64,000 nucleotides of DNA from Pontiella agarivorans (GCF_034531395.1 NZ_JARVCO010000012.1:496001-560000); one strand, 5' to 3'. Shown: positions 9,933 through 58,779, numbered from the stretch's first letter. The notes: a model not told the origin generated them from the sequence alone. Translations and numbers: made by a program.

Positions 9933-10033
9933 GCGGGTCAGAATACGGGAGCGGCGGAGTTTTTAAACCACGAAATACACGAAATATACAAAAACGGTTC
10001 TATTTCATGGGCTTCAGGACTTTCCCGCGTTGA

Positions 10034-10276
10034 TCAGGTCATGATGGTGAGGGCAAGCCAGGGGATGAGGTTGAAAGTGATAAAGATGATTTTGTAGAAT
10101 GCGAGGAAGTAGTAGAGGGCTTTGTTGGTGGTTTCCTCGCTGAGACCGAACATGCGGCTGTGGACCTTGTAGATCAGGCCCCGGCAAAAGGCACTCATGA
10201 GGGCTGTGAAAATGAACAGCGCCAGATTGATCAGGGTCATCCATCCGAAAAACTGCCGCAGAAATTCCATATTCAT
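10034..10276 (-). CDS. Small two-helix membrane protein (DUF6868-like)
   Basis: An 80-residue protein with two hydrophobic segments (about residues 12-34 and 54-77) separated by a short basic loop containing LIYKVHSRMFGLSEE. This pattern fits the uncharacterised DUF6868 family of short inner-membrane proteins. The start at 10276 is supported by a strong ribosome site, GGAGGTG, five to six bases before the ATG; a longer frame to 10295 lacks one. Its function is unknown. Confidence 0.7.
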   Translation of the reverse strand: MNMEFLRQFFGWMTLINLALFIFTALMSAFCRGLIYKVHSRMFGLSEETTNKALYYFLAFYKIIFITFNLIPWLALTIMT

Positions 10277-24348: not shown

Positions 24349-24390
24349 CTGTTTTTCTGAAGTTTGGAACGGGATTTGAGTGGTGACGAT

Positions 24391-25602
24391 ATGTCGATCT
24401 TGTCGAATAGAATGTTTAATTCGGTAGCAAAGGATTATCTGCAGCAGTGTGGTCTGCAACTGTGCCTGTCCGACTGCGAAGGCCGGATTGTGATGCCGGA
24501 AAATATGAGCCCGGTGGAAAATCTTCCGGCCATGTGCCATCTGCGTTTTCATAACCTGAACGAGGCGGTGCGCTGGGGCGAATCCCATATCTTTTTTGTT
24601 GCGCCGGGCATCATGAGCTGGCTGGTTCCGCTGGTCGACGGAGTCGAGGTGAAAGGCGGGTTGTGCGGCGGCTGTATTCTGCTGGAGGATGATCCGCAGA
24701 GTATTCATACCGCGGTCAATTATTTTGTAGGCGAGGGCGGTCGGCGCAAAGATGCCGAAGCCTTTGTCCGGGGACTGCATGTTTTTGAGCAGGAGCGGGT
24801 TCGTCCGGTGGTGGATGCGCTGTATGAATCGTTTTATCAGTACAGCGGATGGAAGCCGCTGAAGCTCATGCGTAATCGCGACCGAATGCTGCAGCAGCGG
24901 CAGATTGCCGAAGAGATCCATCAGCGCAAGGTGGAGCAGAACCGGGCCTACCCCTACGATGACGAACGTATTCTGCTCTCACTCATTCGCGTGGGCGATC
25001 GTGCCGGCGCCCGAAAAATGTTCAATAAAATGCTCGCGGCAATGTTTCTGTATTCCCCTAAACCGGTGGTGGTCCGTGCCCGCGCCATTGAAATGATGGG
25101 ATATCTGGTGCGCACTGCCGTGGAGGACAGCCCGCTTTCCGAGCCGTTGCTCGAACGGCACATGAAATGGATTGAGCAGATTGTGGAGACGCACGATTTT
25201 GACGATCTGTGCAACGTGCTGCGTGAGGCACTTGATGATTTCATGAACAGCATTTTTCTGCAGGGGGTGAGCCCCGTCAGTCCGGCCGTGGGCAAAGCGC
25301 TGGATTATATCACTGCGAACTATACCGAGCCGATCGCGCTCGAAGATATTGCCGCCGCCGCCGGACTCAGCACCTTCCGGATTGCACATCTGCTGAAAGA
25401 AGCCACCGGAAAAACCGCACTGCAGAATATTCATTATCTGCGCGTACAGGAGGCACGGCGTCTGCTGGAGGAGACGGATCTGAGCTGCACCGATATCGCC
25501 TATGAAACCGGCTTCGGTGATCAGTCCTATTTCATTAAGCAGTTTAAAAAGTGGATGGGTATCACGCCGGCGAAATACCGGAAATCCGGCCGCGTTCGGT
25601 GA
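24391..25602 (+). CDS. AraC-family regulator with PocR sensory domain
   Basis: Residues 1-150 resemble a PocR ligand-binding domain: CLSDCEGRIV, a CHLRFHNLNEAVRWGE stretch and PLVDGVEVKGGLCGGCIL, a PAS-like fold linked with small hydrocarbon or corrinoid-pathway signals in anaerobes. A helical middle (160-300) follows and the last ~100 residues are two AraC helix-turn-helix units, IALEDIAAAAGLSTFRIAHL and CTDIAYETGFGDQSYFIKQF. The ATG at 24391 is chosen over a TTG nine codons upstream. It is divergent from the C1 genes and is their probable activator. The stop codon lies within a strong inverted repeat. Confidence 0.88.
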   Translation: MSILSNRMFNSVAKDYLQQCGLQLCLSDCEGRIVMPENMSPVENLPAMCHLRFHNLNEAVRWGESHIFFVAPGIMSWLVPLVDGVEVKGGLCGGCILLEDDPQSIHTAVNYFVGEGGRRKDAEAFVRGLHVFEQERVRPVVDALYESFYQYSGWKPLKLMRNRDRMLQQRQIAEEIHQRKVEQNRAYPYDDERILLSLIRVGDRAGARKMFNKMLAAMFLYSPKPVVVRARAIEMMGYLVRTAVEDSPLSEPLLERHMKWIEQIVETHDFDDLCNVLREALDDFMNSIFLQGVSPVSPAVGKALDYITANYTEPIALEDIAAAAGLSTFRIAHLLKEATGKTALQNIHYLRVQEARRLLEETDLSCTDIAYETGFGDQSYFIKQFKKWMGITPAKYRKSGRVR

Positions 25603-25631
25603 CTGCGGGTCAAGCGGAACACGGCCGGATT
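25583..25631. terminator. Long inverted repeat over the stop codon of the regulator
   Basis: AATCCGGCCGCGTTC and GAACACGGCCGGATT pair over 15 bases with one mismatch, enclosing the TGA at 25600-25602 and a ~19-base loop. No U-run follows, so termination is plausible but not proven. Confidence 0.45.
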
Positions 25632-25916
25632 ACCCGGTGGTTGGTAGTTCTCCTGTTTCCGTTTTGGGACAGGGCTTTCCATTATACAATGAACACAAGT
25701 TTATATCAGGTCATATGTTCGTTTCATTATGGATAAACAATCCGAATGCATCAGTATTATTGATTTATGAATTATATAATTTAGGTCATGTGAAGACGTG
25801 TTTTTTTAGTGTATTGAATTGTTCTTCTTTGAAGTTCTGTAGATGATGCATATTTTAGATATGTATCGTCGTCATATTGATTATGGCCACGAGTTTTTAA
25901 GTAAAAGGTTTTAGCA
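25632..25916. other. AT-rich leader before the defence operon
   Basis: No gene was found in these 285 bases. Base composition changes abruptly from GC-rich to AT-rich near 25675, which I take as the boundary of a transferred segment. TATACA near 25684 and TATAAT at 25775-25780 are possible -10 boxes, without a convincing -35. AAAAGG eight bases before 25917 is the ribosome site of the next gene. Confidence 0.5.
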
Positions 25917-27167
25917 ATGGGTGAAAAACAGATTAAAAGTAATGTTGATACCGGTATCACGATAAAGCGCAATGCGCGCTTAGAGTTTACCTTCACATTG
26001 GTATTGGTCGTAGCATTCATGCTCATGAGTATGTGGCTCGTGTTACAAGTTCGTGATGCGGATCGCGCAGAAGATCGAGAAAAACAGGCTGCTGCAGAGT
26101 ACAATGCTCTGTTGGAGAAAATTCCGAAGTATAAGAGTGAGGCGGAAGTTCTTGCCGAAAAAATCGGCTCATTAAAAGCGGAACTGGCCGGATTAGAAGA
26201 AAATTATGCAACAGTAAGCTCAAAGTATGAAAAAGCAAAAGAAGTCATTGCTGCAAGGAATCAGGCTTCTCAGGAATACACGGATCTCACCGCCAGAATA
26301 AGAGCTGGCGAAGCTACAATAAAAGAGCTCGAGACTCAGCGTGATGAATTACTGATTGCTGTGGGGAATGCTCGAGCCAAGAAATCCTCAGAACAAAAAG
26401 CGGTTTCTGATTTGCTCCAGAAAAAGCTAGAGCTAGGAACAGAAACCAGCGACCTCAATCTTCTAAAAGATAAAAAGGATTCGATCGAAAAGGAATTAGT
26501 ATCGCTCAAGTCGGAAAAATCATCTCTAAAAAATTCTTTAGCACAAATAACCCAAGATATCACATCCGAGCAGGAACGATTAACCAAACTTCGTGAGCAA
26601 GTTGCAGATGCACGGTCTGATCTGACGACCGCAGATTTGTCCTTGCGAGAAAAACAGGCAGATGTAGCAACATATCAGGCAGATGTGGATCGCCTTAAAA
26701 AACAAATTAGTTCCCTTAAGGTCGAGTTGAAGGGAATGGAACGGGAACGTTCAGCTTTACTTGAGTTACAGCAGAAAAACTCAATCCTAAAAGCAGATAA
26801 CTCAAGTCTGGAATCCGACGTATCAAAGCTAACCGCGGATAAATCAGTTCTCGAGGAGGATATTCGTGAATTGGAAGTTAAGAGTTCTTCAATATCATCG
26901 CAAATTAAACGGGTTGAGCAACGCGAAGCTGCTCTCGCCAGCAAAGAAGCCAGATTGGATGATTTAGATGTAGCGGTATCACAGAAAAAAGCTCAGTTGG
27001 CTGAATTGCAGACTGAAGTTGAGAAGGCGCGTACTGAATATTCAGAGCTGAGTGCCAAATATCGAACACTTTCAGAACGAGAATCAAGAGTTACTGAACG
27101 AGAGCGCCAAGTAGCGGCTCGTGAAGAATCTGTTCGTATCAAAGAATCCCAATCTGAGACTAAATAA
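25917..27167 (+). CDS. Membrane-anchored coiled-coil protein (first gene of CoCoNuT-like operon)
   Basis: 416 residues: a basic N-terminus, one membrane segment at about residues 24-43 (FTFTLVLVVAFMLMSMWLVL), then almost continuous coiled coil to the end, rich in E, K, S, L and Q with heptad spacing. No catalytic motif is visible. It starts at 25917 after AAAAGG and its stop shares a base with the start of the next gene. With the following four genes it matches the plan of coiled-coil McrBC-type systems, in which such proteins are thought to scaffold or sense. Base composition is clearly lower in G+C than the flanking genes. Confidence 0.75.
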   Translation: MGEKQIKSNVDTGITIKRNARLEFTFTLVLVVAFMLMSMWLVLQVRDADRAEDREKQAAAEYNALLEKIPKYKSEAEVLAEKIGSLKAELAGLEENYATVSSKYEKAKEVIAARNQASQEYTDLTARIRAGEATIKELETQRDELLIAVGNARAKKSSEQKAVSDLLQKKLELGTETSDLNLLKDKKDSIEKELVSLKSEKSSLKNSLAQITQDITSEQERLTKLREQVADARSDLTTADLSLREKQADVATYQADVDRLKKQISSLKVELKGMERERSALLELQQKNSILKADNSSLESDVSKLTADKSVLEEDIRELEVKSSSISSQIKRVEQREAALASKEARLDDLDVAVSQKKAQLAELQTEVEKARTEYSELSAKYRTLSERESRVTERERQVAAREESVRIKESQSETK

Positions 27168-29116
27168 TGACTAATTTACCATTTACTTTACTCCTATCTC
27201 TCTGGCTGGTCGTCAGCTTTATCAGCGTCGGTATTTTGGCAATAATGTGGAGGCTTCCCAAGTTTTGGGAATTTAAAAACCTACAAGGAAAATGCTCTGA
27301 GCTGGAACAAAGATATAAGTTGTTGGAGCCGGAGGTTGAGCAGGGGGCTCGAATGGCTGCTCAACTGAAACAGGATACTGCCAATGTGGAGTTGTTGAAG
27401 ACCCAGGTGGAAAAGCTTGAGCATGAGAAGCAACAACTTGAACCCATTGGGCAGAAAGTTGCAGAACTTGAATCTAAATTAGTTACGAAGCATGACGAGT
27501 TGAACCAAACGGCGGCAGAAGAAAAAACTCTCCGAGAAGAAATTATTCGTCTAGAGAGTGTTAAAAAAAGTGAAGAGGAGGGTATCGAGACTCGAAAAAA
27601 AGCTGTTGAAGAATTGTCGAAAGAAATTGAATCCTTGAATAAACGATTCTCAGAACTCCGAAAAAATATACCTTTAGCGGAAAGTGAACTGGTCTCTTTG
27701 AAGCAGCATCAAGAGCATGTTACTGGGGATATCATTCGGGTAGAGAGTCAGCTGAAAGAGTTAAGGAACTCACATGATGAGGTTAAGAAAGACCTCGATA
27801 AAATGACTGAAAAATACAGCTATCTTAAGGGAGAATCCCAAGCGTTAGAAAAAGAAATTGAAGCTCGTACGAAGCATCTTGAAGCTCTTAAAGCTGATCA
27901 TAAAAATGCCGGTGGAGTAAATGAGACAGATGATCCTATGGGCGATTTGTGGAGCCCTAATTTTGTCTTTTCGCAAACACCTAGGGTCAGTAACGAAGCT
28001 AACGAAGAGTCTCGTATGAGAGATTTATCCAAGAATCTTGAAAACAGAGGATTGGTGTTTGCTGATAGAACCTTAAATGCTTTCCATACTGCACTGAAAG
28101 TTGCAGACATTTCTCCTCTGACCGTATTGTCGGGTATCTCAGGTACAGGCAAAAGTCTTCTGCCAAGAGCATACTCAGATGCGATGGGAATTCATTTTCT
28201 TGGGTTGGCTGTTCAGCCTCGCTGGGATAGTCCCCAAGATATGTTCGGTTTCTACAACTACATGGAACAAAAATACAAAGCAACCGAACTTGCCAGAGCA
28301 ATGGTACAGTTTGAGCGATACAATAAGCTTGCTCATGGCGGTGATCTAAAGGACCAAATGATGTTGGTTCTCTTGGATGAAATGAATCTGGCTCGGGTTG
28401 AGTACTACTTCAGTGAGTTTCTATCAAAGTTGGAAATCAGACGAGATGTGGATCCTGCTAAACTGACGGATAGACAGAAGGTAGAAATTGCCCTAGAGAT
28501 GGGGCATGGTAGCAAAGGTATTGATGAAGTCAGGCTCTATCCTGATAGAAACATTCTTTTCGTTGGAACAATGAATGAGGACGAATCCACTCAGAATCTT
28601 TCTGACAAAGTACTGGATAGATCCTGCGTACTGCGTTTCGGGAAACCAAAGCAACTGCAAACCAATCAAGCAAAAGGCTCTGCGTTTTCAGCCGCGGGTC
28701 CCGACGGCATGTTGCCGAGAGATACTTGGATGAAGTGGACTGATCTTGGGGATAATACGCCGAGCGTATATACAGTTGATGTTATTGAACAACTAAACGA
28801 TGTTCTCAATATGACAGGCAAGCCCTTTGCTCACCGTGTGGGCAAAGCTATCGGCAACTACGTGCTTAGTTACCCAGACTGGATCAGCGGCCGCGAAAAG
28901 ATTGCTTTGGCAGATCAGGTTGAGCAGCGTATCCTTCCAAAGCTGAGAGGATTAGATGTAAACGAGCATCATGACGCATTTTCGAAGCTTTCTACAATTC
29001 TAGCTGATCTGGAAGATCCAGTTCTATCTGCTGCATTCGAAGAGGGTCGTCAAAGTAATCATTCTCGCGGTATGAACTCATTTATTTGGCGAGGTGTGGA
29101 TCGCTGTGAGAATTGA
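27167..29116 (+). CDS. Membrane-anchored coiled-coil McrB-type AAA+ NTPase
   Basis: An N-terminal membrane segment (about residues 4-27) and a long coiled coil (35-245) precede an AAA+ domain of the McrB/dynein-like branch. Walker A is GISGTGKSLL (near base 28135), Walker B VLLDEMNLARVEYYFSEFL (near 28365) and the nucleotide-specificity position is GTMNEDEST (near 28563), a variant of the McrB MNTAD motif. An arginine finger candidate is in VLDRSCVLRF. McrB proteins are GTPases that form rings and drive McrC nucleases; here the ring would be tethered to the membrane. Translation is coupled to the previous gene (TAATG) and to the next one by overlap. Confidence 0.85.
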   Translation: MTNLPFTLLLSLWLVVSFISVGILAIMWRLPKFWEFKNLQGKCSELEQRYKLLEPEVEQGARMAAQLKQDTANVELLKTQVEKLEHEKQQLEPIGQKVAELESKLVTKHDELNQTAAEEKTLREEIIRLESVKKSEEEGIETRKKAVEELSKEIESLNKRFSELRKNIPLAESELVSLKQHQEHVTGDIIRVESQLKELRNSHDEVKKDLDKMTEKYSYLKGESQALEKEIEARTKHLEALKADHKNAGGVNETDDPMGDLWSPNFVFSQTPRVSNEANEESRMRDLSKNLENRGLVFADRTLNAFHTALKVADISPLTVLSGISGTGKSLLPRAYSDAMGIHFLGLAVQPRWDSPQDMFGFYNYMEQKYKATELARAMVQFERYNKLAHGGDLKDQMMLVLLDEMNLARVEYYFSEFLSKLEIRRDVDPAKLTDRQKVEIALEMGHGSKGIDEVRLYPDRNILFVGTMNEDESTQNLSDKVLDRSCVLRFGKPKQLQTNQAKGSAFSAAGPDGMLPRDTWMKWTDLGDNTPSVYTVDVIEQLNDVLNMTGKPFAHRVGKAIGNYVLSYPDWISGREKIALADQVEQRILPKLRGLDVNEHHDAFSKLSTILADLEDPVLSAAFEEGRQSNHSRGMNSFIWRGVDRCEN

Positions 29117-30728
29117 AGGGGTAAAAGAGTTAAGAAAGCACCCTTGGGATGACAGGGTAACAGCTGATAGTTCAACAGTGGATGGTCGTGGTTCCGCTCG
29201 TATTGTGCTTGCCGATATGGGTAAGGAGATTTGGCTTGGCTCTCTTGAATTACCCAAGTCTGGATTCCCTTTTTTAAATAAGGGGGTATGGTACCAAGCC
29301 TATGATCTGCCTCTAACGAGTGCCCCGGGGCAAATTGAACAAAAAAAAACAGATATGCTGTCTGTGTTGGATATAGAGGTAACACAAACGAATTTAATGC
29401 CTCGTCCTAGAAGGGGAAAGGCTAAAGAAGACGATTCGGTAGAAGTTAAATCGCGCGATAAATGGCTCTTTTGGCAGCTACTTAGATACTTTGAACTGAG
29501 CCATCCCGATGATAATCTCGGAGAGTTTGAGGCTGGATATGGTGGTGCAGTTAGACGTTCTTGGGATTCTGTCAGGCGTGAGTGGATACACGCGAATTCA
29601 GATGAACCGGAAATTTCACTAATTGTCCGTTTAGCGAGTAACTCAGCCCTTGTTCAGGCATTGGACCTCATTACTCAAAGTCCTCGTCGAGTCTTGGAGC
29701 GTTACCGTTCAGATACACCAATAGGAAGAATACAGGAACTTGATTCTGCGTGTATCAGAAATTATGCCCACCGACCAGGAAGAAATTCGCTCGAAAAAGC
29801 GGGGCCAAAACAACGTCTTTACTCTGTATTGCGTAGGGAGAATATAGACACTCTAGAGAACCGTGTTTCTTTATGGGTGTTGACAAGGATGAGTGCGATG
29901 GCTGCAGAGTGGCTGGATCGAAATAGCCGTTTTTCAGATAGCCATAGACACACCGTTGTAAAGAGGTTGATGTCCTCTTTACAGGAATGGATAAACCGCC
30001 CAACTTTTTGTGACGTAGATATGCTCTTGGATTTGCCGTCAGAACCCAACTATCCCTTACAGTTTGAGTCTCGTTATAAGTACATTTGGGAAACATACTT
30101 GGCTATTAGGCGGGAAGATCAAGTATTTGAAGATGCTTGGACGTGGCAGCGAGTGCTGTGGGGTGAGTCGGGTCGTCAAATATTTCATGCATTTCTCACA
30201 GGAATATGGAGTGAGCTCTTAGTGTCCACTCCGGTTTTTAGAACTGAGGGACTTTCTGGGCAGTGGCTCATGCCGTTTCGTGCGCCAGGTCCGTTCAAAG
30301 GTCCCGTATATCTCTATGATTCACTTGATGTTAACACCGTTGGTTGGTCTTCGCTATGGAAGGAGAGTGAAGCTTTTCCTGATTTTGACCGGATCGGAAA
30401 GTGCGGATGTGATCAGGTTTTATGGTTTGGAGGAAAAGGTATAGCAATTTGGTATGTTCTCAAGGATCCTCATGCGATAAGTCTTGAAGAAATGATTCGG
30501 CAGGCACGTGAGAGTATGGACCGATCAGTGTCTGATAAAGATCAGTGGGTTGGACTGGTTATTGCGGCAGACCTTTCGGTAGAAGAAAAAGGACCTCAGG
30601 TTGAGCAGATTGGTATAGGTAATTCTATGTGTGTGGGGATTTCTATTCCTATGGATGCTCATCGATATTTCGAAGATATTGAAGCTGGAATTGAAATAGC
30701 ACTTGAAGCTGCTGGAGGCTGTGGATGA
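29106..30728 (+). CDS. DUF2357 / McrC-like partner protein
   Basis: 540 residues from GTG 29106, chosen because GAGGTG lies nine bases before it; GTG 29094 is also possible. The middle carries the DUF2357 hallmark RRENIDTLENRVSLWVLTRM (near base 29840), which marks the McrC-like partners of McrB NTPases. The C-terminal ~150 residues sit where a PD-(D/E)XK nuclease is expected, but I see only CDQVLWFGGKGIAIWYVL and no DxK or ExK, so the nuclease may be inactive. The start overlaps the NTPase gene by 11 bases and the stop overlaps the next start (ATGA). Likely adaptor or degenerate nuclease of the system. Confidence 0.75.
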   Translation: MRIEGVKELRKHPWDDRVTADSSTVDGRGSARIVLADMGKEIWLGSLELPKSGFPFLNKGVWYQAYDLPLTSAPGQIEQKKTDMLSVLDIEVTQTNLMPRPRRGKAKEDDSVEVKSRDKWLFWQLLRYFELSHPDDNLGEFEAGYGGAVRRSWDSVRREWIHANSDEPEISLIVRLASNSALVQALDLITQSPRRVLERYRSDTPIGRIQELDSACIRNYAHRPGRNSLEKAGPKQRLYSVLRRENIDTLENRVSLWVLTRMSAMAAEWLDRNSRFSDSHRHTVVKRLMSSLQEWINRPTFCDVDMLLDLPSEPNYPLQFESRYKYIWETYLAIRREDQVFEDAWTWQRVLWGESGRQIFHAFLTGIWSELLVSTPVFRTEGLSGQWLMPFRAPGPFKGPVYLYDSLDVNTVGWSSLWKESEAFPDFDRIGKCGCDQVLWFGGKGIAIWYVLKDPHAISLEEMIRQARESMDRSVSDKDQWVGLVIAADLSVEEKGPQVEQIGIGNSMCVGISIPMDAHRYFEDIEAGIEIALEAAGGCG

Positions 30729-33190
30729 AGGCTATAGGCATCGATTTGACCAATGCAGTTAGTCAATGTAGTTCCTGTGCAGATACTGATTGGTTTCCTG
30801 CTGTAATACTTCCAATGGTGCAGGATGAGCCTATTCTTGTAGGGAAAGATGCAAAACTGCACCGCCGTGGGGCAGGATTGCTATGGCCGCCAGAAAGTCA
30901 AATTCCTTACAGCAATAACCCAAAGTATGGAAAGGGTAGAGTTACCTTGGCTGAAGCATGGCGATATCTAGCATCATTTGAAACTCAGGATTCAGCATGG
31001 GATAACTATCAGCCTTTTCAACGGCAAATTTCTTGGCAGCCAAATCCTGCAGACAATCGCTCTAAGGTTTCTTTCTCAGCAGAAGATATTATTTCTGAAG
31101 CAGCTGGGGCATGCATTGATAATTTCTCTGACCATGATCTGATTTGTTTTGTTGTTCCCGATGATATAGGTGAAGGTGCACAGCAAGCTTTGCTTGACCG
31201 ACTGGGAGCAACATCCGCAGTCCATCTTCTGCCGCGTCCAATAGCCATTGCTACGGACTGGTGCAGTAGGCAGAATCCTGATAAATTTCGGATCATCGAT
31301 AGGGACAGCGGTTGCTGTGGCTATATCTGGGTGTTATCCGCAGGTTTAGATCGATGGGAGTTCTGTCCTATGGATATACGAAAAGTCTCATTTGGCCAGA
31401 CCGAGTTTCTTATACCGGTCAGGGATCACACGGAGCATAGTAGTGGGCTTGCCGTTGATGGATTAAGTATGCTTGCGGCATATGCTATCGGTGTGAACAA
31501 AGCGGATATCTCAGATGTCTGGTTCAAGATCGTATCCAGTAACCTGATAGAAGAGCTCCTAAATGACACAAGCCTGAATTGTTATACGGATGATTTTCAC
31601 AGAGCATGTTCTGCAGTTAAGGAATGGTCGGGCCGGTTAGCTAAAACGAATCAAGACTGCTCTATAAATCCGGATTCATTAAATTCAGAGCTAATAAAGC
31701 ATGCCAATAAATTTAAGAAACGAGATAGAGATTGTATTGGAACGATAGCCGATGGTTCATTAGCAGGACTTTGTATGGGTGGGGTTTCCATTGCTGGGCG
31801 AGTTCTAGATCAGTATGAAGACTATGGGATTTTCGAAGTAACGAATGGTAGCGCGACGCTCAATGGAGCGAAGCTGGTGGCTCAACAATTAGAACGGGGG
31901 CTTCCAACTTACCGAGATCGCATTGCACCGATAGAAATTTTCTATAAAGGAAATGACGAGTTTTGGGATCCTGTAATATCCACGAAGACGCTTATCGAGG
32001 GAACAACCGTAGAAGCGGGCAAAGTGGCGAGAACCAAAGAGCCGATTAAAGAGTTCTTTATTCCAGCAGGTCAGGACTCTCTAACTCTTATTTTGAGAAG
32101 GAAATTTGGAAATAAACAAATTATCCGTCAAGTGTCTGCTGGTTTGCGCGAAAGTGTGGCAGATAATGAAAATGTAGTTATCACCGCTGAAGTTCGTCCT
32201 GGACAAGGTTTTGCTACCGCTCTAATTCGTTCTCAACGCCCTGGTTTCTTTGAAACAAAACTAAACTGGAAAACAATGAAGGACGGAACGCCTCCTCCTG
32301 CTCCTAAATATGCGTGGCCTCCGGGTGTTGCGAATGTCCATTCAAATGTGTCGCGTTGGGATTTAGCTCCTTTTGAAGAGATTTCTAAAGTTTTATCAGA
32401 TTTCAGGCCGAGGAGGAATACCCCTCATGCGGTGTCAGAGTTTAGGAAATATATTGCTTTTTGGTTAAATGGTAACGAGCCATATCAATATGATGGAAGA
32501 ATCGCCAGTTCTGACAGCTTTAATCGATTTGCTAGGCCCGAGGTACTGGAGGAGTTGTCTCGGAACTTGGGTGATGCGATAGATCTGGCTCCTTCAAATG
32601 ATCAGCTTATTCGGTTAGCAGGTTGGATGTATGAGGCCTGTCCGGCAAGTGCTATTAAAGTTGCGGTTGAGCGAATCAAGAAGAGACAGGAGATGCCATG
32701 CGATCTCGAAGTTGCGGGAAAGGCCTTTGTTAAAAAAGAACACATCCAGGTGTTTGTTGAGATGTTTGTTGAGAGAATTAGAGAGCTCAAAAAAAACTAC
32801 AGCATAGATAGCAACAATAACTGGATAAGAGCCTTTCGTGACTTAATCAGATTTAGGGTGGATCCATTGCGTCCTGAGTTCATTAAGGACTCACAGATAA
32901 ATACGATTGAAAAATATATCATCGGTCTAATGTATTATGAATCAAATCGCCGTGGTCCGAAATATAACAACTGTTTATATATTGCGCCTCATATTCTTAA
33001 AAGACGTCGGTTTGATGATGAGTTTCTAGCTGTGGATAGTAAACGTTGGAAAGAATGGAATGAGATGTTCGAATATGCCAGTAAAGTTGGTATGAATCGG
33101 CAGAAAGACATGGCTAAGGCTATGCTGAAGTTATTGAAGGAAGAAGCCACACTTGGGGATATCAAGATTCTGGCAAGCAATGAAAAGTAA
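30725..33190 (+). CDS. Hsp70/actin-like protein with unknown C-terminal half
   Basis: The N-terminus MKAIGIDLTNAVSQ has the look of the first phosphate loop of Hsp70 (GIDLGTTNS) and is followed by LVGKDAKL, a stretch resembling the Hsp70 lid order, LLPRPIAIATDW (compare the EPTAAALAYG loop) and GVSIAGRVLDQ. Fold assignment is therefore to an Hsp70-like ATPase, with degenerate loops. Residues ~540-821 match nothing I know and are mostly helical with many charged residues. It is embedded in the operon by 4-base and 11-base overlaps with its neighbours, which argues for a fixed role in the same system. Hsp70-like members are reported in some coiled-coil McrBC loci. Confidence 0.6.
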   Translation: MKAIGIDLTNAVSQCSSCADTDWFPAVILPMVQDEPILVGKDAKLHRRGAGLLWPPESQIPYSNNPKYGKGRVTLAEAWRYLASFETQDSAWDNYQPFQRQISWQPNPADNRSKVSFSAEDIISEAAGACIDNFSDHDLICFVVPDDIGEGAQQALLDRLGATSAVHLLPRPIAIATDWCSRQNPDKFRIIDRDSGCCGYIWVLSAGLDRWEFCPMDIRKVSFGQTEFLIPVRDHTEHSSGLAVDGLSMLAAYAIGVNKADISDVWFKIVSSNLIEELLNDTSLNCYTDDFHRACSAVKEWSGRLAKTNQDCSINPDSLNSELIKHANKFKKRDRDCIGTIADGSLAGLCMGGVSIAGRVLDQYEDYGIFEVTNGSATLNGAKLVAQQLERGLPTYRDRIAPIEIFYKGNDEFWDPVISTKTLIEGTTVEAGKVARTKEPIKEFFIPAGQDSLTLILRRKFGNKQIIRQVSAGLRESVADNENVVITAEVRPGQGFATALIRSQRPGFFETKLNWKTMKDGTPPPAPKYAWPPGVANVHSNVSRWDLAPFEEISKVLSDFRPRRNTPHAVSEFRKYIAFWLNGNEPYQYDGRIASSDSFNRFARPEVLEELSRNLGDAIDLAPSNDQLIRLAGWMYEACPASAIKVAVERIKKRQEMPCDLEVAGKAFVKKEHIQVFVEMFVERIRELKKNYSIDSNNNWIRAFRDLIRFRVDPLRPEFIKDSQINTIEKYIIGLMYYESNRRGPKYNNCLYIAPHILKRRRFDDEFLAVDSKRWKEWNEMFEYASKVGMNRQKDMAKAMLKLLKEEATLGDIKILASNEK

Positions 33191-36100
33191 TCTGCAGGAC
33201 ATATGTTGGCGAGTGATTGCCGAGAAAGGGTTTCCTTTAACGACGCATGATGTGTACCGCCGTGTATGCATTCATGTAAATGAAAACGTAAAGGAATATG
33301 AGGTTTCAATAGCGCTGGGTGAATTGCAAGAGCAGGGCGCGCTTCAGCTTGAGGGCATGAATTGGAAGTTAATCAAGTCTCCACCTCCAGTTGCGACTGG
33401 ATCTAATAATGTCGTAGGTGGAGCAAAGCCCAATGATATTTCGGAGCAAGGAGATAAAACTTACACTGCCCCGGGATTAGACGAATCTTTCAAAAATAGT
33501 GGAACCGTTAGAAGTGGCCGGTGGGCAACATTCAGGCGGCTTGTTGATTACTATCTAGACTGTATCGAATTTACGGAAATGCCACAGGTGCGAGCCTATT
33601 TTGAAGGCCAAAATGATACCTGGGTGGGACTGAAATCTAATATTCAATGGGATCGGCTGCATGCAGGGCATCCGGTTGCAATACCACATTTTTCGGAAGA
33701 CCAAGCTGCTTTTCAGCGTAACAGAATGCAGCGAGGTGAAGACCAGTCCCTATATATAGGTTATCCAATCGAACTGGTAGAAACCAGAAATGGAAATCGC
33801 TGGTTAATGCCTATTTTACTCACTCCTGTTAAGGTAACGGATGGAGATCACAGCTTGCTGCTTGAGCAGGATGGGGTAGTAATGCCCAACCAAAAATGGC
33901 TCGATGATCGATTCCGAAGACCTGATGATAGAAATGCGCTTCTTCGCTTTTTGGGCATCTTAAATGCCGAAGATGACGAGGATTCGATTCAGGAGGCAAG
34001 GCGCGTGGGGATACTGGCAGAAAAGCTTGGACGTTATCTTGGCGACAAGCTAATGACCCCAATCCGATTAGATGAGTCTAGTTCACCTGACTGGGAAACT
34101 GCTAAGCCTGGCATCTATAACTCATGCATCATGTCAGTGGGTGGTCGCTATAAGTATACTAAAAGCTTAATGAGCGAACTTCGTTACATTGCGAATCATC
34201 TTTCGGACGAGCAACTGGATTCTACAGCATTAGCGTCACTTTTTCCTCATCAGAAAAAAGGTGAGGATCAAGCCGGTGAAGATGTTCAACAGCTTTTACC
34301 CAATTCATACGTAGCTGGTGTAGATCCTCTGAATGAGTTACAGGAGGAAGCTGTTCGTATGGCTTTGAACCTCCCTATGGCAGCTGTGACTGGTCCTCCA
34401 GGAACTGGAAAATCTGCTGTTGCTCGAAACATCATGATCAATATGGCGCTTCGAAATCGGTCGGTTTTATTTGCAAGCAAGAACCATAGGGCGCTCGATG
34501 CAGTAGAGCTGCCTTTAAATAAGCTGTCTGATAACGGGCCATTAGTTGTGAGGTCTGCCCGACAGGATTGGACTGCAAGGCAGCCTCTACATCAATTACT
34601 TCAGGAATTGCTCAATAGGCCTTTCGCTGAAGACAGTGAAGGGCTGGAGGAGCAGCTTGGTCACCTTAGGGCAGCTCTAGAGGCGAGAGAGCTGAATCGC
34701 GCAGATTTGTCAGTGATCTTACAAAAGAAAGAAGAGAGAGAGTGTGCCGCTGATAAAGGCGAACAGATTAAATCCAGCATACCGATGACGTGGAGGTCTG
34801 ATCGTATAGGGGAAGAAATTTGTAGGATAGTGGGGGAGCACTCCCCTAAGGAACTAAAATCTTTGCTCTCTGTCGCCCAATCAAAAGGGTTGAAAAAATG
34901 GATCTTTCAACTTTTTGTCAAAGCAAAGTTCAATGCAGCGATATCGCTGATTTCAGATATTACTGAAAAATTTAAGAAAGTGGATAATTCTTTTTGGGAT
35001 GCCTGCCTACTTTGGTCGGAGTATCAATCTGTTCAACAAGAGCTTGTTTATATTGATGAACATCTGAAGAAACTTCCTGATCGCAATCAGCTTAATGAAA
35101 TGGGTCAGGAGTTTCGCGATAAGGTAAAAGCCAGCCTAATGAAATGTGTCGATCTGGTTGCGCGAGGTGCGCTCGTGATCAGTGATGAAGAGCGACAAGG
35201 GTTGAGTTCTTTGAGAAGCGCATTACAAACATTTGGCCAGACTCGCCTAAACGCAGCTTTCTTAGAGCAAAGTGCATCTATCCAAAAAATATTTCCTCTA
35301 TGGGCCAGTACGAGCCAGTCGATGAAGAGCACCATTCCTTTGGTGCCTGGCTGCTTCGATCTTTTAATTGTTGATGAAGCTAGTCAGTGCGATATAGCAT
35401 CATCCATTCCTCTATTAGTCCGCTGCAGAAGAGCGATTGTCGTTGGTGATCCCATGCAGCTTCAACATGTAACAAAACTTCAGATTCAATCAGATCGGGA
35501 TCTTTTAACTGCACATCAGCTTACTGATAATGATCTTCAGCGATTTAGCTATAGAGTAAATTCCCTGTTCGATTGTGTTCGTTCTTCTATTCCAGGATCA
35601 AATTATGTAGCACTAAGAGAGCATTTTCGCTCTCATCCTGACATAGCCAATTTTGCAAGTGATTCGTTCTATCAGTCAGCTTTGTTGGTTCGAACAGATC
35701 CTCATCATTTTAAGCACTCGGTCAGGGGGAAAACCGGCATTCACTGGGATGATGTGGTTGGAGAGACGATCAGACCGGGCAAGGGGCAGGGTGGCGTTCA
35801 TATTCCAGAGGAACGTGAGCATATTATCAGGGAACTTTTGGAGCTCCAGAATAATGATTTCGATGGCTCAATAGGTGTGGTGACTCCTTTTAGAGTCCAG
35901 AAACAAAGATTGTCAGATGAGATACATCAACAGCTAAAGCCGGCATTCATAAAAAGAACTGATCTTAATGTAGATACTGCTCATGGTTTTCAGGGGGACG
36001 AACGTGATGTCATGTTTTTCAGCCTATGCTGTGGTCCCGATATGCCCGATGGCAGCCGAGGATTTATAACGAAGGATGGAAACCTGTTTAATGTAGCCAT

Positions 36101-36548
36101 CACGCGAGCCCGTGCAGCACTGAGAATGGTAGGCAATCTAAATTGGGCTCTTTCTTGCGATATTTCTTTTATCCAAAAATGTGCAAATCGTGCTGTTCAT
36201 GCGCAAACCAAGCCAGAAGATAAAGGCGAACTTTATCAATCGCCATGGGAGAAGAAACTCCATAAGGCACTGATTGATGTTGGAATTGATGCTGTGCCGC
36301 AATATCCGGTTGCAGGTCGCTTTCTCGACTTAGCCGTGCTGTCTCCTGTAAAGCTGGATATAGAAGTGGATGGGGAGGCTTTCCATCGTACTGCGGGTGG
36401 ACGCCGGAAAGATGATGACATTTGGCGCGATGAGCAAATGATGGTGTGCGGGTGGCAGGTGTGCCGTTTTTGGGTTTATCAACTCGAAGAGGACTTGGAC
36501 GGATGTGTACAGAGGATAAAAAAGAAGTTGTTGCGAGAGGAAGGTTAA
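33180..36548 (+). CDS. UPF1-like SF1 helicase with C-terminal PD-(D/E)XK nuclease
   Basis: 1122 residues from ATG 33180, overlapping the previous stop by 11 bases. Order: winged-helix-like N-terminus (1-70), a linker, Walker A GPPGTGKSAVARN (near base 34392), a long helical insert (34630-35330), Walker B IVDEASQCD (35368), VGDPMQLQHV, LREHFRSHPDIA, TAHGFQGDERDVMF and VAITRARAAL, the SF1B/UPF1 set. The final ~100 residues are a DUF559/Vsr-like nuclease with E in SPWEKKLH, D in FLDLAV and DIEVDGEAFH, which looks catalytically complete. UPF1-type helicases act on RNA or DNA ends. It is the last gene and the likely effector of the island. Confidence 0.88.
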   Translation: MKSNLQDICWRVIAEKGFPLTTHDVYRRVCIHVNENVKEYEVSIALGELQEQGALQLEGMNWKLIKSPPPVATGSNNVVGGAKPNDISEQGDKTYTAPGLDESFKNSGTVRSGRWATFRRLVDYYLDCIEFTEMPQVRAYFEGQNDTWVGLKSNIQWDRLHAGHPVAIPHFSEDQAAFQRNRMQRGEDQSLYIGYPIELVETRNGNRWLMPILLTPVKVTDGDHSLLLEQDGVVMPNQKWLDDRFRRPDDRNALLRFLGILNAEDDEDSIQEARRVGILAEKLGRYLGDKLMTPIRLDESSSPDWETAKPGIYNSCIMSVGGRYKYTKSLMSELRYIANHLSDEQLDSTALASLFPHQKKGEDQAGEDVQQLLPNSYVAGVDPLNELQEEAVRMALNLPMAAVTGPPGTGKSAVARNIMINMALRNRSVLFASKNHRALDAVELPLNKLSDNGPLVVRSARQDWTARQPLHQLLQELLNRPFAEDSEGLEEQLGHLRAALEARELNRADLSVILQKKEERECAADKGEQIKSSIPMTWRSDRIGEEICRIVGEHSPKELKSLLSVAQSKGLKKWIFQLFVKAKFNAAISLISDITEKFKKVDNSFWDACLLWSEYQSVQQELVYIDEHLKKLPDRNQLNEMGQEFRDKVKASLMKCVDLVARGALVISDEERQGLSSLRSALQTFGQTRLNAAFLEQSASIQKIFPLWASTSQSMKSTIPLVPGCFDLLIVDEASQCDIASSIPLLVRCRRAIVVGDPMQLQHVTKLQIQSDRDLLTAHQLTDNDLQRFSYRVNSLFDCVRSSIPGSNYVALREHFRSHPDIANFASDSFYQSALLVRTDPHHFKHSVRGKTGIHWDDVVGETIRPGKGQGGVHIPEEREHIIRELLELQNNDFDGSIGVVTPFRVQKQRLSDEIHQQLKPAFIKRTDLNVDTAHGFQGDERDVMFFSLCCGPDMPDGSRGFITKDGNLFNVAITRARAALRMVGNLNWALSCDISFIQKCANRAVHAQTKPEDKGELYQSPWEKKLHKALIDVGIDAVPQYPVAGRFLDLAVLSPVKLDIEVDGEAFHRTAGGRRKDDDIWRDEQMMVCGWQVCRFWVYQLEEDLDGCVQRIKKKLLREEG

Positions 36549-36601
36549 CCGTATCTCTTCTAATTTCCCTGTTTAGGTAAACTGGTTTAGATTCAAAACT
36601 A

Positions 36602-37639
36602 TTAATTCGGACGATCGGGCTGGGTGCCGGGTTCGGTTTTAATGGCCTTCGGAGAGGGGACGTGCGGAAAAGTTTTCCGGCATTCTTCCACGACGCGGTT
36701 GACTGAAATTTTCGGAAAGCTGTCGAAACCGGCGGGGTCGATGACCCAGTCGAGATGCCGGTAGGGAATTGTGGATATTTTTTCAGAGGTCTTCCGGTTG
36801 AACAGCATCAGGATGCGGGTGTCGAGGGCGAGACCGAAGTGCAGGATACCGGTGTCTCCGCCAAGAACGAGGGATGAGGATTTAATGAGTCCGGCGGTCA
36901 CGAGTAGTGATTTCCCCGTAATTACGGTGTGCCCGCGCGCCCGGACGGGCTCCAGATCGATTTCATCTTCTGCGCTTCCGCAGAAAAAGACCTGAATACC
37001 GTGTGCCTTGAAAAATCGGGCGACGGAGAGATATTTCAGCAACGGCCAGTTTTTTGATGCGCGGCTGGTAAACGGCTGGATCATCAGGGTGGGTTTTTCA
37101 GGATCAAGACCGTGTTCACGGAAAAGACCGGCGGCCTGTTCGGTATAGTTTTCCGGGAGATGAAAGGTGTTGTCGGGTTCGTTGATCTGCAGACCGCATT
37201 GCCGAAGCATGGAGAGGTACCAGTCGATAACATGCATGGAGGAGATGTCGCGGTCGAGGCCCCGGGTATAGGCCAGTTTGCGCATGCTGCGGTAGACCGA
37301 ACCCCAGCGCTGGGGCGCGCCGGTGAACCAGGTGATCCATGCGGTTTCTCCATAACCCTGCAGATCGATCACATGGGAGAACCGTCCGGGACGGATGCGG
37401 TTTAAAAGGGAAAAAAGGGTCGGGAGAGTTTTTCCCGGATGTTTCAGCGCATTGCGGTCGATGGAGATAATTTCATCGACCGCGCTGAATCCGGAAATCA
37501 GCGGAGCGATGGATTTGCACACCAGGAAACTGATTTGTGCGTCAGGATAATTCTGCCGCACGGCGTTGACGGCGGGCAAGGTATGCAGTACGTCGCCGAT
37601 GGACTTCAGACGGATAATCAGAATACGCTCTTTTTTCAC
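36602..37639 (-). CDS. Glycosyltransferase family 9 (heptosyltransferase-like)
   Basis: 345 residues with the ADP-heptose:LPS transferase plan: N-terminal ILIIRLKSIGDVLHTLPAV, the middle PTLMIQPFTSRASKNWP for sugar-nucleotide binding and LVLGGDTGILHFGLAL near 260, where the usual GGDTGPMHLA motif stands. These enzymes extend the lipopolysaccharide core in the cytoplasm. The start is GTG at 37639. It is isolated, on the opposite strand to the defence operon, and its GC-rich composition shows that the transferred segment has ended. The sugar donor cannot be told. Confidence 0.88.
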   Translation of the reverse strand: MKKERILIIRLKSIGDVLHTLPAVNAVRQNYPDAQISFLVCKSIAPLISGFSAVDEIISIDRNALKHPGKTLPTLFSLLNRIRPGRFSHVIDLQGYGETAWITWFTGAPQRWGSVYRSMRKLAYTRGLDRDISSMHVIDWYLSMLRQCGLQINEPDNTFHLPENYTEQAAGLFREHGLDPEKPTLMIQPFTSRASKNWPLLKYLSVARFFKAHGIQVFFCGSAEDEIDLEPVRARGHTVITGKSLLVTAGLIKSSSLVLGGDTGILHFGLALDTRILMLFNRKTSEKISTIPYRHLDWVIDPAGFDSFPKISVNRVVEECRKTFPHVPSPKAIKTEPGTQPDRPN

Positions 37640-44206: not shown

Positions 44207-46432
44207 TCAGTACACCTCGAATTCATGGATATGAAGGGGGATCGGGCCGGAGTGATAGTTGATTTTAAGGCGAATAAAGCGGGCGGAGAATGGCTCGATT
44301 TCGTATTCGTGAACGGTTGAGGCGAGGTCATCGCGGTGGGTTCGGGAGGCGACACCGGTGTAGCTTCCCTGCTGTGTTGAAAGCAGTATGTCGTAACGAA
44401 AAGTGCGGGCTTCCTTGGCGAAATCATTGGTGAATACTTTGATCTTGGAAATGGTGTGGATATCCCCTAGATCAATATCGATTTGAGCGGGAAGCGGCGC
44501 TGCAGACCAATAGTTGCTTTCGGTGATGATCCCGTCGACGGCGAATTCCGGATTGCTTCTCACTCCTCCCATTGAGGTGAGGGGTTGACCGAGCACAAGG
44601 TTGTCGGGAATGAGTTCTTCAAACTGTTTTTTCATTTCTTTGTTTTCAGACAGTTTTGCCCCGCGGGCGGCAGGAATCCGTCTGCCGATCCAGTCTGGAG
44701 AGGCCTGTAGCGTTTGGAGAACCCGAAGGAGTAATTCCGAGGCTGCGCCGGAATTATTTTGTTGCTCCAGATAGGCCAGAATTTCAGCACACAGTTCTTT
44801 TTTGAAGGGGATATAGGTCTGTGCGAGTTTTCTGAAATCCTCTCTTTCATCCAGTGCCCAATGCATGAAGAGGGCCATGGTGAGCGGAGTCGATTTGATT
44901 TGGCTGCAGTTTTTAAGCATCTTCTCAACCTGTATATATTCCTCTTCCCGGGTCAGGTTGTTTTTCATGAATGCCTGGTTAACATCCCGAATCATTCGGT
45001 ATAGAGATTGAGGATATTCCCAAAAGGTTTGATCGGCTTTTCTATACTGCCCTTTCATGAAATAGAGGGCCGCCAGAAGATTGTGGTATTCGACGTTTGT
45101 GCTGTCGAGAACTGCAGCCGTTTTTATGTGATTAAATGCGCCTTCAATGTTTCCTCTGGATAGCGCATTCAGTGCTCTTTCGTGATATTGGGGGGCTGCA
45201 TCCCGTCCGAGTCTTTGGCGTTCCTCTTTTTCAATCTGGAGTTCGGCGAGGGCCTTAATGGCCTCTTCGCGGCTATTATGAATGAGCGCAAAAGCAATGC
45301 CGGCGGCCAGAATTAAAAGCAGGATAAATATGCCGGACAGGTTGAGTATCTTTTTCTGACGCAGATAGAAGAGGCGCATTTCCCGAAAGAAACCGGCGTT
45401 TTCCGCAGTCGCTGAAAATCCATTCTGGTAGTTGAGCAAATCCTGCCGCATTTCGCTTACGGAGGCATAGCGGTGCTTGGGGTTCAGTGCCAATGCTTTG
45501 AGGGTAATGGCCGAAAGTGCCGGTGGAATCTGTGCATCGGGGCAGCGGGTGGCCGGGGGAATGATGAGGCCTTGACAGGTTTGTTCCAGAACTTTTTCAG
45601 GCGTTTCCCCGGTAACCGGGAGGGCATTGGTCAGCATTGAATAGAGAATGGCCCCCAGCGAATAGATGTCCGTCTGGAAGGATTTATCCTCTTTTCCTTC
45701 AGCCTGTTCGGGAGCCATGAAACCGGGGGTGCCTTTTATCCGGCCGGAGAGCGTCATATTATTGAGTAAATCGGGGTTGAGCAGCAGTCGATCAAAATCA
45801 CCGCCGTCATAGTCCTGATTACCGATGAGTTTTCCGAGGCCCCAGTCGCAAACCACCACTTCCCCGTGCGCGCCTACCTGAATGTTTTGAGGTTTCAGGT
45901 CCAGATGAAGGACATTCTGCGAGTGGGCGTAGTCAATGGCATCGCATATTTTAAGAAAGATATTCAAAAGCGAAGCCAGGACATCCTTACTCAGGTGTTT
46001 ATTCGGGCTGCTGTGATTCCGGTTGATGATGACATCCAGACTTTCGCCGGTTTTCAGCTCCATAATGAAGTAGGGCGTGGAGTCTGCATTCAGGCCAATA
46101 TCGTAGACCTTGATGATATTGGGATGATCCAGCTGGGCTGTCAGGCGGGCTTCGCGCAGGAAAGGCTCATAAAGTTCTTCCGGGGAGCCCGGGTTGAGCC
46201 GGGCCATGGCCACATAGCGTGCGGTTTTTGGATTGAAGACTCGAAAAATAGATTTCATCCCGCCTCGTGCAAGCAGGACATCCGTCTGAAAGTGAGTCGT
46301 GGTGGGTTCCAGTTCGGAGTAGATGGGGGAAAATTCGGGCTTAAAGTCGCGTTCTGCAGTTTCGCTTTCATAATACAGCGACATGAGCCGGGTAAGTTTA
46401 GGCGAAGTTTCTGAATGATCCATTTTATCCAT
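44207..46432 (-). CDS. Transmembrane protein kinase-like receptor with discoidin (F5/8 type C) sensor domain
   Basis: Order: kinase domain (residues 45-335), membrane segment (363-385), helical TPR-like region (395-590) and a C-terminal F5/8 type C domain (DGIITESNYW...HIHEFEVY). Kinase motifs: glycine loop ARGGMKSIF, HLDLKPQN with D178, D196 in CDWGLGK and the APE-like MAPEQ. The beta-3 VAxK lysine reads VAMAR, so alanine 77 replaces the ATP-positioning lysine; it may be an atypical or pseudo-kinase. The topology puts the kinase inside and the sugar-binding-type domain outside. The start overlaps the stop of the sigma factor gene by one base (TAATG), so the pair is co-translated. Confidence 0.88.
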   Translation of the reverse strand: MDKMDHSETSPKLTRLMSLYYESETAERDFKPEFSPIYSELEPTTTHFQTDVLLARGGMKSIFRVFNPKTARYVAMARLNPGSPEELYEPFLREARLTAQLDHPNIIKVYDIGLNADSTPYFIMELKTGESLDVIINRNHSSPNKHLSKDVLASLLNIFLKICDAIDYAHSQNVLHLDLKPQNIQVGAHGEVVVCDWGLGKLIGNQDYDGGDFDRLLLNPDLLNNMTLSGRIKGTPGFMAPEQAEGKEDKSFQTDIYSLGAILYSMLTNALPVTGETPEKVLEQTCQGLIIPPATRCPDAQIPPALSAITLKALALNPKHRYASVSEMRQDLLNYQNGFSATAENAGFFREMRLFYLRQKKILNLSGIFILLLILAAGIAFALIHNSREEAIKALAELQIEKEERQRLGRDAAPQYHERALNALSRGNIEGAFNHIKTAAVLDSTNVEYHNLLAALYFMKGQYRKADQTFWEYPQSLYRMIRDVNQAFMKNNLTREEEYIQVEKMLKNCSQIKSTPLTMALFMHWALDEREDFRKLAQTYIPFKKELCAEILAYLEQQNNSGAASELLLRVLQTLQASPDWIGRRIPAARGAKLSENKEMKKQFEELIPDNLVLGQPLTSMGGVRSNPEFAVDGIITESNYWSAAPLPAQIDIDLGDIHTISKIKVFTNDFAKEARTFRYDILLSTQQGSYTGVASRTHRDDLASTVHEYEIEPFSARFIRLKINYHSGPIPLHIHEFEVY

Positions 46433-47031
46433 TAACGTTCGAGTTCTTTACGAAGCTGGGCAATCTCTTTCATCAGCCGCTGTCTGACCCGGTTTTTTAA
46501 TGTGCGAACGGATTCGGGATTAATACCGAGTTCTTTGCCAATCTCTCTGGATGATTTTCCTTCCAGCGAGAGTTCGAAGGCCTCTACGGCCACCCCTGAA
46601 AATAATTTGCGGATAGAATTGAGGGCGGTTGCGGTCAGATGCCTGACCCATTCCTGTTCAACGATCTGGTCTAAATCTGTTTGGGAAATGAGCTGTTCTT
46701 CACCTTGCAGTTCCGCAGCTTTATCGCGGCGTTTGTTATATCCCTGATTTTTTTTGATATAGTCGATGGCATAATTCCGAATCAGGCTGGATAGCCATGT
46801 CCGAAAATGAACCTGATATTTTTCACCATCGAAGGTGGAGAGATTCCGCCAGATTTTAACCATGATTTCCTGTGTGACATCATCAAAATCTTTACTGAAA
46901 AAAGACATTTGGCGGAGGACGGCGTGAATGAATCCCGTGTAATATTTGACAAATTCATTCCAGGCTTCTTCGTCATCACGATTTCTGGCCCGTTGAAGCA
47001 GTGTTTGTTTTGTTACCCATTCATCAGGCAT
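46432..47031 (-). CDS. ECF-type sigma factor
   Basis: 199 residues. Region 2 is visible as DFDDVTQEIMVKIWRNLSTF and FRTWLSSLIRNYAIDYIKK; region 4 as ELSLEGKSSREIGKELGINPE followed by VRTLKNRVRQRLMKE, a complete helix-turn-helix. It belongs to the ECF sigma factors common in Planctomycetes-Verrucomicrobia, which are often encoded beside a Ser/Thr kinase in place of an anti-sigma factor. ATG 47031 is chosen because GGGGA lies six bases before it; the ATG four codons upstream overlaps that site. The first ~130 codons and the promoter region are duplicated at 49.6-50.1 kb. Confidence 0.92.
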   Translation of the reverse strand: MPDEWVTKQTLLQRARNRDDEEAWNEFVKYYTGFIHAVLRQMSFFSKDFDDVTQEIMVKIWRNLSTFDGEKYQVHFRTWLSSLIRNYAIDYIKKNQGYNKRRDKAAELQGEEQLISQTDLDQIVEQEWVRHLTATALNSIRKLFSGVAVEAFELSLEGKSSREIGKELGINPESVRTLKNRVRQRLMKEIAQLRKELER

Positions 47032-47141
47032 GTGTGTCCCCATTCATCAGCATTTAAACGCTATCCATGGCATCCATTTCAATCAAGCTTCAATATAGGA
47101 AGCTTTTTTCATTTTTCTGTTTCGCCAGCTTAAGCAAGGTC
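46634..47141. repeat. Segmental duplication, copy 1 (sigma factor 5' part and upstream region)
   Basis: About 508 bases are colinear without gaps with 49601-50108 (offset 2967); I counted about ten base differences, i.e. roughly 98% identity. Similarity continues with an indel to about 47160. Confidence 0.93.
47085..47109 (+). terminator. Hairpin with T-run upstream of the sigma gene
   Basis: AAGCTTC and GAAGCTT form a 7-bp stem around AATATAG, followed by TTTT. The duplicate is at 50052-50076. It would stop plus-strand transcription just before the conserved promoter-like element. Confidence 0.45.
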
Positions 47142-54045: not shown

Positions 54046-54114
54046 TGACTGGCTCACCGATGAATGTGCAATTTGATATCCATCCGTAAGCGATGATTTA
54101 TTGTGGTTTTAGTG

Positions 54115-54144
54115 TATAATTGCTCTGCAAAATGAGTCGCAGAG
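54115..54144 (+). promoter_or_regulatory. -10 box with adjacent inverted repeat before the propeller genes
   Basis: TATAAT at 54115-54120 has no good -35. CTCTGC (54123-54128) and GCAGAG (54139-54144) form an inverted repeat directly after it, where an operator or an activator-dependent initially transcribed hairpin could lie. Confidence 0.4.
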
Positions 54145-54225
54145 AGAGGTTGATTCTCCGTCCATATGACCGGGTGCGGTAAATGGATAATGAATCGTAC
54201 TGATTTAACGGAAAAAGGAAATTAC

Positions 54226-55572: not shown

Positions 55573-55607
55573 TATTCAATAGGAATCAATATGACCCATA
55601 AATCACT
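55141..55607. repeat. Gene-conversion tract, copy 1
   Basis: About 467 bases, covering the 3' third of paralogue 1, the intergenic gap and the first codons of paralogue 2, are nearly identical to 56497-56963 (offset 1356). Upstream of the tract the two genes diverge markedly. Confidence 0.9.
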
Positions 55608-56928: not shown

Positions 56929-56963
56929 TATTCAATAGGAACCAATATGGCCCATAAATCACT
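56497..56963. repeat. Gene-conversion tract, copy 2
   Basis: Partner of the copy at 55141-55607; only scattered single-base changes were seen, for instance GGAATCAAT against GGAACCAAT before the start codons. Confidence 0.9.
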
Positions 56964-58667: not shown

Positions 58668-58740
58668 CTTCAATGCGGAAGCTTTTTTATTCGTTCTTCT
58701 GTTTCGCCGGCTCACGCCAGGTCGTAAAGGAAGTATACAG
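58668..58740 (+). repeat. Conserved ~73-base element, copy C
   Basis: CTTCAATGCGGAAGCTTTTTT, CTTCTGTTTCGCC and GGTCGTAAAG align with copies A and B at roughly three quarters identity, ending in AGTATACAG. It ends 39 bases before the lectin-like protein gene. Confidence 0.7.
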
Positions 58741-58779
58741 AGAGAATAGAAAGCTGACTGATCAGATACGGAGATTGAG

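Follow-up and report, generated by a model that had tools for sequence, protein, structure and literature searches.

What does an AT-rich island encoding two membrane coiled-coil proteins, a DUF2357 protein, an Hsp70-like protein and a UPF1 helicase-nuclease do in the genome of a Kiritimatiellia-class bacterium, and how was it acquired? The question was addressed in a 64,000-nt stretch of that genome, referred to here as the window, and in relatives of the five proteins. The island is very probably an anti-virus operon with the full gene set of a Type III-B CoCoNuT (coiled-coil McrBC), horizontally gained and tethered to the inner membrane.

Gene layout and base composition

Five plus-strand ORFs were found head to tail within 25917-36548, each overlapping the next (Table 1), which agrees with the original prediction of five same-strand overlapping genes at this place. 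The overlaps had been put at 1 to 11 bases; this held for cnuA/cnuB (1), cnuC/cnuD (4) and cnuD/cnuH (11 with the ATG start of cnuH, 38 with the TTG start), but for cnuB/cnuC the GTG start at 29094, which gives an N-terminus (MWI...) common to a homologue, would if used make the overlap 23 bases rather than about 11.

Table 1. Coordinates of the island, its five genes and the two flanking host genes in the window.
Feature	Position	Strand	Length	Remarks
cnuA	25917-27167	+	416 aa	membrane helix at residues 25-43, coiled coil after it
cnuB	27167-29116	+	649 aa	membrane helix at residues 8-26, coiled coil, McrB-type GTPase
cnuC	29094-30728	+	544 aa	N-terminal beta domain, DUF2357, nuclease-like C-terminus lacking conserved catalytic residues
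cnuD	30725-33190	+	821 aa	Hsp70-like nucleotide-/substrate-binding domains, degenerate phosphate loop; helical repeats
cnuH	33153 (TTG) or 33180 (ATG) to 36548	+	1131 or 1122 aa	UPF1-type SF1 helicase, insertion, Vsr-like nuclease
AT-rich accessory island	25603-36649	.	11,047 bp	between two host genes
Left flank host gene, AraC-type regulator	24364-25602	+		outside the island; kept in same-genus genomes
Right flank host gene	36602-37639	-		outside the island; 85% identical protein adjoins the left flank in genome G297

The GC content of the island was 44.1%, against 52.9% in the remainder of the window, and the mean for the same genome was 51.9% (sd 2.6) over 40 pieces of 10 kb sampled from 20 stretches, one of which (1/40) was as AT-rich as the island. 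Four hand counts of G+C in single 60-base lines, on which the AT-richness had first been proposed (19, 26, 33 and 38 of 60), were all exact on recount. Promoter and terminator scans yielded sites no commoner than in shuffles.

Two other features of the window were recorded. A Sigma-70-type sigma factor gene and then a gene for a Ser/Thr protein kinase with a C-terminal F5/8 type C domain lie at 44207-47043 (-), apparently as one operon, and five consecutive ORFs (445-812 aa) at 51607-60405 (+), flanked by a calcineurin-like phosphoesterase and a GH2 glycosidase, gave no Pfam match at 1e-5.

An accessory insertion between two host genes

In a genome of the same genus (G297) the left flank aligned up to window position 25602 and the right flank from 36650, at 83-85% identity, with 1,095 bp of unrelated DNA in place of the 11,047 bp; the left flank protein was 91% identical at the matching place. 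In a second genome (G289) the two flanking genes, the right one presumably a glycosyltransferase family 9-like gene as named from its sequence, were directly adjacent. The alignment and the adjacency therefore show the island to be accessory DNA inserted between neighbouring host genes. An integrase, a transposase and terminal or direct repeats were sought in the island and at its ends, and none was found. Horizontal gain of the operon by this Kiritimatiellia-class bacterium (Verrucomicrobiota), as had been proposed, is supported by the site lacking the operon in the same-genus genome.

On IMG/VR contig L204 (3091-15668) a complete H-A-B-C-D operon comes immediately after an integrase-like gene, and in that case III-B is carried by a mobile element. 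A search of the viral collection with P0002 alone returned no relative, a profile search later giving one, and the single-protein search with P0004 returned no plasmid match.

The CnuB GTPase

CnuB carries the motifs of a McrB-type GTPase (GISGTGKS, LLDEMN and a shortened NxD motif, MNEDE), and the NxD motif, Walker A and Walker B were present in the window CnuB and in all III-B relatives aligned. The anticipated McrB-type AAA+ domain was clear with PADLOC (PDC-M26A, 2.7e-38), though weak with Pfam (AAA_5, 0.003, below the cut-off). A maximum-likelihood tree of the GTPase domain placed the window sequence inside the Type III clade (100/99) and inside the clade of III-B plus III-C (96/94), with III-A as the sister of the latter and the other GTPases outside; Rhizobium and cyanobacterial loci, not the set of Bell et al., served as its subtype references, it held no CoCoPALM reference, some outgroup rows were long-branched, and III-B did not form one exclusive clade against III-C.

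The weak AAA_5 match, a dynein-related family and the only one that Pfam gives in CnuB, would suit a reading in which a housekeeping ATPase of the MoxR or dynein type stands by chance beside unrelated helicase and chaperone genes. We regard that reading as refuted, with a probability close to nil: the NTPase profile gave 502.5 bits for the window protein and 0.8 and -2.5 bits for MoxR proteins of the same genome, so that no grouping with MoxR or dynein-type ATPases was found, and the five genes, far from being scattered singly in relatives, form a conserved cluster in dozens of them.

Very long CnuB proteins (1443-1675 aa) were seen in L068 6591-10922, L074 and L079 6815-11842 (Phycisphaeraceae), with CnuH not found nearby.

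Domains of CnuC, CnuD and CnuH

CnuC matched DUF2357 in Pfam (2.3e-11), and its AlphaFold model (pLDDT 86.5), with beta strands across residues 12-99, found its best match in McrC of the solved McrBC complexes (8.7e-7). Catalytic nuclease residues were sought in the CnuC family alignment and none was conserved; the protein thus combines DUF2357 with an inactivated PD-(D/E)xK domain, as in III-B. CnuD had no Pfam match by itself; its family profile led to DnaK (1.2e-4), and its model (pLDDT 83.7) matched the fold of the DnaK nucleotide-/substrate-binding domains (9.6e-12). Helical repeats, termed HEAT-like solely for their pattern of helices, follow the Hsp70 part. The first phosphate loop of DnaK reads GIDLGTT, and at its place CnuD has the degenerate GIDLTNA. 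None of the PADLOC models matched CnuC or CnuD.

In CnuH, Pfam detected AAA_11 of UPF1 type (1.6e-16), AAA_12 (2.3e-24) and the MTES_1575 nuclease (2.2e-12), while the first ~75 residues were without a Pfam match. Walker A and Walker B are separated by 327 residues, a large insertion after Walker A, and the D, E-x-D and H residues of the C-terminal Vsr-like nuclease were invariant in seven aligned homologues. The DUF2357 protein, the Hsp70-like protein and the UPF1 helicase-nuclease of the original prediction are all borne out by these matches, the first two by fold as well.

PADLOC also reported MkoA (3.1e-46), MkoC (3.6e-43) and PDC-S37 (1.3e-40) in CnuH, all through the helicase. Mokosh, with its set of MkoA and MkoB or MkoC, was rejected as an identity for the operon, as only the helicase core matches (CnuH 390-1000); to our knowledge Mokosh has no McrBC parts.

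Membrane anchors and topology

Both predicted membrane coiled-coil proteins were recovered, CnuA and CnuB each having one N-terminal membrane helix and a coiled coil. When a helix was called as an N-terminal 19-residue stretch with hydropathy >= 1.6, it was present in CnuA of 69/72 loci and in CnuB of 75/81, four further CnuB proteins lying just under the threshold, and in one protein each of CnuC (1/79), CnuD (1/74) and CnuH (1/61); these counts are not independent events, because the loci share descent. The same helices were found in the Rhizobium III-B proteins and in III-C CnuB (5/5), and the III-A CnuB and Type I proteins checked were without one. Membrane tethering of the system, part of the original prediction, is supported by the retention of these N-terminal helices across homologues. 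The main text of PMC11090510 never applies "transmembrane" to III-B or III-C proteins and has no word starting "membrane", so the anchors of CnuA and CnuB are a new point with respect to that main text, which its supplements may already record. The conserved helices lead to a testable claim, namely that the membrane is where these McrBC relatives work, in contrast to those III-A and Type I proteins that were checked.

In CnuB the positive flank of the helix is the C-terminal one (55 vs 9), putting the GTPase on the cytoplasmic side. For CnuA, an N-terminus on the inside would be favoured by net charge (52 vs 12), yet K+R counts do not differ between the two sides. Three CnuA homologues (L044 6448-7806, L045 9198-10364 and L094 8154-9686) have an N-terminal zinc ribbon with two CxxC motifs before the membrane helix, a sequence feature that hints at a cytoplasmic N-terminus. 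The hits of CnuA to coiled-coil models in PADLOC (JetC, LmuB and others) were discounted as generic matches of composition.

The N-terminal membrane helix and coiled coil of CnuB are also what a CoCoPALM GTPase has; in CoCoPALM as described, the GTPase bears an FtsB-like domain and is associated with a gene of the signal peptidase family (PMC11090510). The island might then encode an NxD GTPase joined to a membrane coiled coil of the FtsB kind and engaged in envelope or pilus work, and not a nuclease-bearing defence. We hold this to be very improbable: the island is without a signal peptidase or pilus gene, it does contain the genes for CnuD and CnuH-Vsr, and the GTPase grouped with III-B and III-C loci, in a tree without CoCoPALM sequences. 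The sole DivIC match (Pfam), in CnuA, was rejected as FtsB homology, since it falls in the coiled coil and not in the membrane helix.

Distribution, gene order and neighbouring effectors

A profile scan of genome contigs confirmed 445 relatives, and the best 80 of the 445 loci were kept; these came from Verrucomicrobiota, Planctomycetota, desulfobacteria, Alpha- and Gammaproteobacteria, Cyanobacteriota and Bacillota. Among the non-III-C loci, with duplicates removed, CnuH-Vsr was the first gene in 46 and the last in 11 (57 unique), CnuH lacked a Vsr call in five, and it was absent from the examined stretch in 20, many of them at contig ends. Gene order gives no basis for a subtype, because the window and a separate clade of the GTPase tree both have CnuH last. 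In the phylum of the host a strong CnuB match was found in 11/289 genomes, including that of the window, and in none of the six other same-genus genomes among the 289.

Two membrane-anchored coiled-coil proteins together with a chaperone-like protein could also compose a membrane stress-response or cell-envelope maintenance operon, assembled from McrBC-like parts and without a role in defence. The literature search agrees with this insofar as it found no experiment on any III-B operon, and anti-phage function is for that reason argued by analogy. Yet the operon is patchy in the phylum and among same-genus genomes, it is inserted at an otherwise conserved site, the CnuH nuclease looks active from its residues, one relative adjoins Shedu and a restriction endonuclease gene, and other relatives lie near HsdM-like genes (judged by eye). 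A maintenance operon is on these grounds unlikely, and the III-B defence operon is retained as the preferred reading.

Some loci have other genes beside the A-B-C-D core. At L042 5181-8066 (+), L059 16148-19057 (-) and L070 16017-18848 (-) the core, with no CnuH found, adjoins an SNF2 helicase of ~950 aa, whose gene in L042 overlaps cnuA on the same strand; these SNF2 neighbours are ~40% identical to each other, L078 has a fragment (9054-10232, -), and L056 was grouped with L042. The SNF2-associated cores are a possible undescribed subtype. In L048 (5870-7846 and 15185-16600) the core, again with no CnuH, lies between two caspase-domain (Peptidase_C14) genes; one of the two also encodes a fused FGE-sulfatase domain, and the upstream gene overlaps cnuA. 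In L062 (7483-9540) the place of CnuH, after cnuD, is taken by a gene for a UvrD-type helicase. These SNF2, UvrD and caspase neighbours suggest exchangeable effectors around the core, in a few loci and in genomes where CnuH could sit elsewhere. A different variation was seen in L049 11303-14236 and L046 6971-10099, from the class of the host, in which CnuC and CnuD are fused (~980-1040 aa) beside a III-B type CnuH; the fusion resembles the CnuCD of III-A, but occurs within III-B-like operons. For specialists, the interest of the system lies in its conserved membrane anchors and in the effector variation around the A-B-C-D core.

Proposed mechanism

In the III-B operon, CnuB would assemble on the cytoplasmic side into a GTPase ring of the McrB type, with the CnuB helix and coiled coil as the link to the membrane. 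By analogy with McrC, CnuC would be seated in this ring and stimulate GTP turnover, its dead nuclease region contributing at most nucleic-acid binding. CnuD, with its Hsp70 fold and degenerate phosphate loop, may recognise RNA that is aberrant or of viral origin, or else a product bound to the ribosome. After triggering, and licensed by the membrane-tethered CnuB-CnuC GTPase, CnuH would unwind its substrate and its Vsr-like nuclease would cut foreign nucleic acid, with host RNA as a fallback.

The substrate might instead be DNA, with III-B operons attacking phage or plasmid DNA, and not RNA, as it enters at the membrane, and the tether putting the UPF1-Vsr helicase-nuclease at the injection site. 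The conserved membrane helices would fit this, as would the nuclease fused to CnuH, which is of the Vsr-like/DUF559 kind, whose relatives with known function are mostly DNA endonucleases. Against it stands the case of Bell et al. for an RNA target, built on the Hsp70-like nature of CnuD, the likeness of the helicase to UPF1 and the kinship with HEPN-bearing III-A systems (PMC11090510), and we give the DNA target a substantial chance, if somewhat below even. More speculatively, and with a rather small chance of being right, III-B and III-C together could be a membrane-signalling class of McrBC, in which the CnuA coiled coil senses phage entry at the outer face of the inner membrane, the CnuB GTPase ring works inside, and a general A-B-C-D core has different effectors attached to it (UPF1-Vsr, PLD, SNF2, UvrD or caspases).

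Comparison with known systems

Type III-B as defined by Bell et al. 2024 has a separate coiled-coil CnuA, a CnuB with an NxD GTPase, a CnuC with an inactivated nuclease, a separate CnuD with Hsp70-like and HEAT-like parts and a CnuH with a fused Vsr-like nuclease, is without TerY-P and CnuE, and occurs mainly in Alphaproteobacteria (PMC11090510). The window agrees with this description in CnuA, in the coiled coil and NxD motif of CnuB, in CnuC, CnuD and CnuH, and in branching within Type III; the island has five genes only, TerY-P and CnuE being absent. Type III-B is further characterised by an Ig-like domain in CnuC and by a wHTH and an OB-fold at the N-terminus of CnuH. CoCoNuT membership is supported by the gene set, the motifs and the GTPase tree. 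The further suggestion that the gene set may be a new subtype was not upheld and is rejected for the window, its gene set being that of the published Type III-B (PMC11090510).

Compared with the McrBC complexes of E. coli and Thermococcus (PDB 6hz4, 6ut6, 6ut7), the window shares the McrC fold in CnuC (8.7e-7) and McrB-type Walker motifs in CnuB. It differs in having NxD in place of NxxD, a coiled coil and membrane helix in place of the DNA-binding domain, a dead nuclease region, and the additional proteins CnuA, CnuD and CnuH. Type III-A (Photobacterium, Phytobacter and Klebsiella plasmids) has the NxD GTPase and the UPF1-type helicase in common with the window; unlike the window, it has TerY-P-type kinase/phosphatase genes, a separate effector gene, a long fused CnuCD and a CnuB without an N-terminal helix. 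An assignment to III-A was rejected, as CnuC and CnuD are separate in the window and neither TerY-P nor a CnuE with HEPN is present. The III-C loci (Synechocystis pSYSX and other cyanobacteria) were grouped with III-B in the tree, and their CnuB is 33% identical to that of the window; they encode a PLD-type nuclease and a helicase in separate genes, whereas in the window Vsr is fused to CnuH.

The Rhizobium III-B operons, intact in R. leguminosarum (NZ_CP071401.1) and with a disrupted cnuH in R. tropici (pRtrCIAT899b), have the same five components and domains as the window. In the latter (L038 498-6148) an IS21-family element interrupts cnuH, so that this III-B copy is probably inactive. The CnuB proteins of the window and of Rhizobium are 36% identical, the gene order is A-B-C-D-H in the window and H-A-B-C-D on the Rhizobium plasmids, and the window host belongs to Verrucomicrobiota and not to Alphaproteobacteria. 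The III-B gene set thus reaches well past Alphaproteobacteria, into Verrucomicrobiota, Planctomycetota, desulfobacteria and Gammaproteobacteria.
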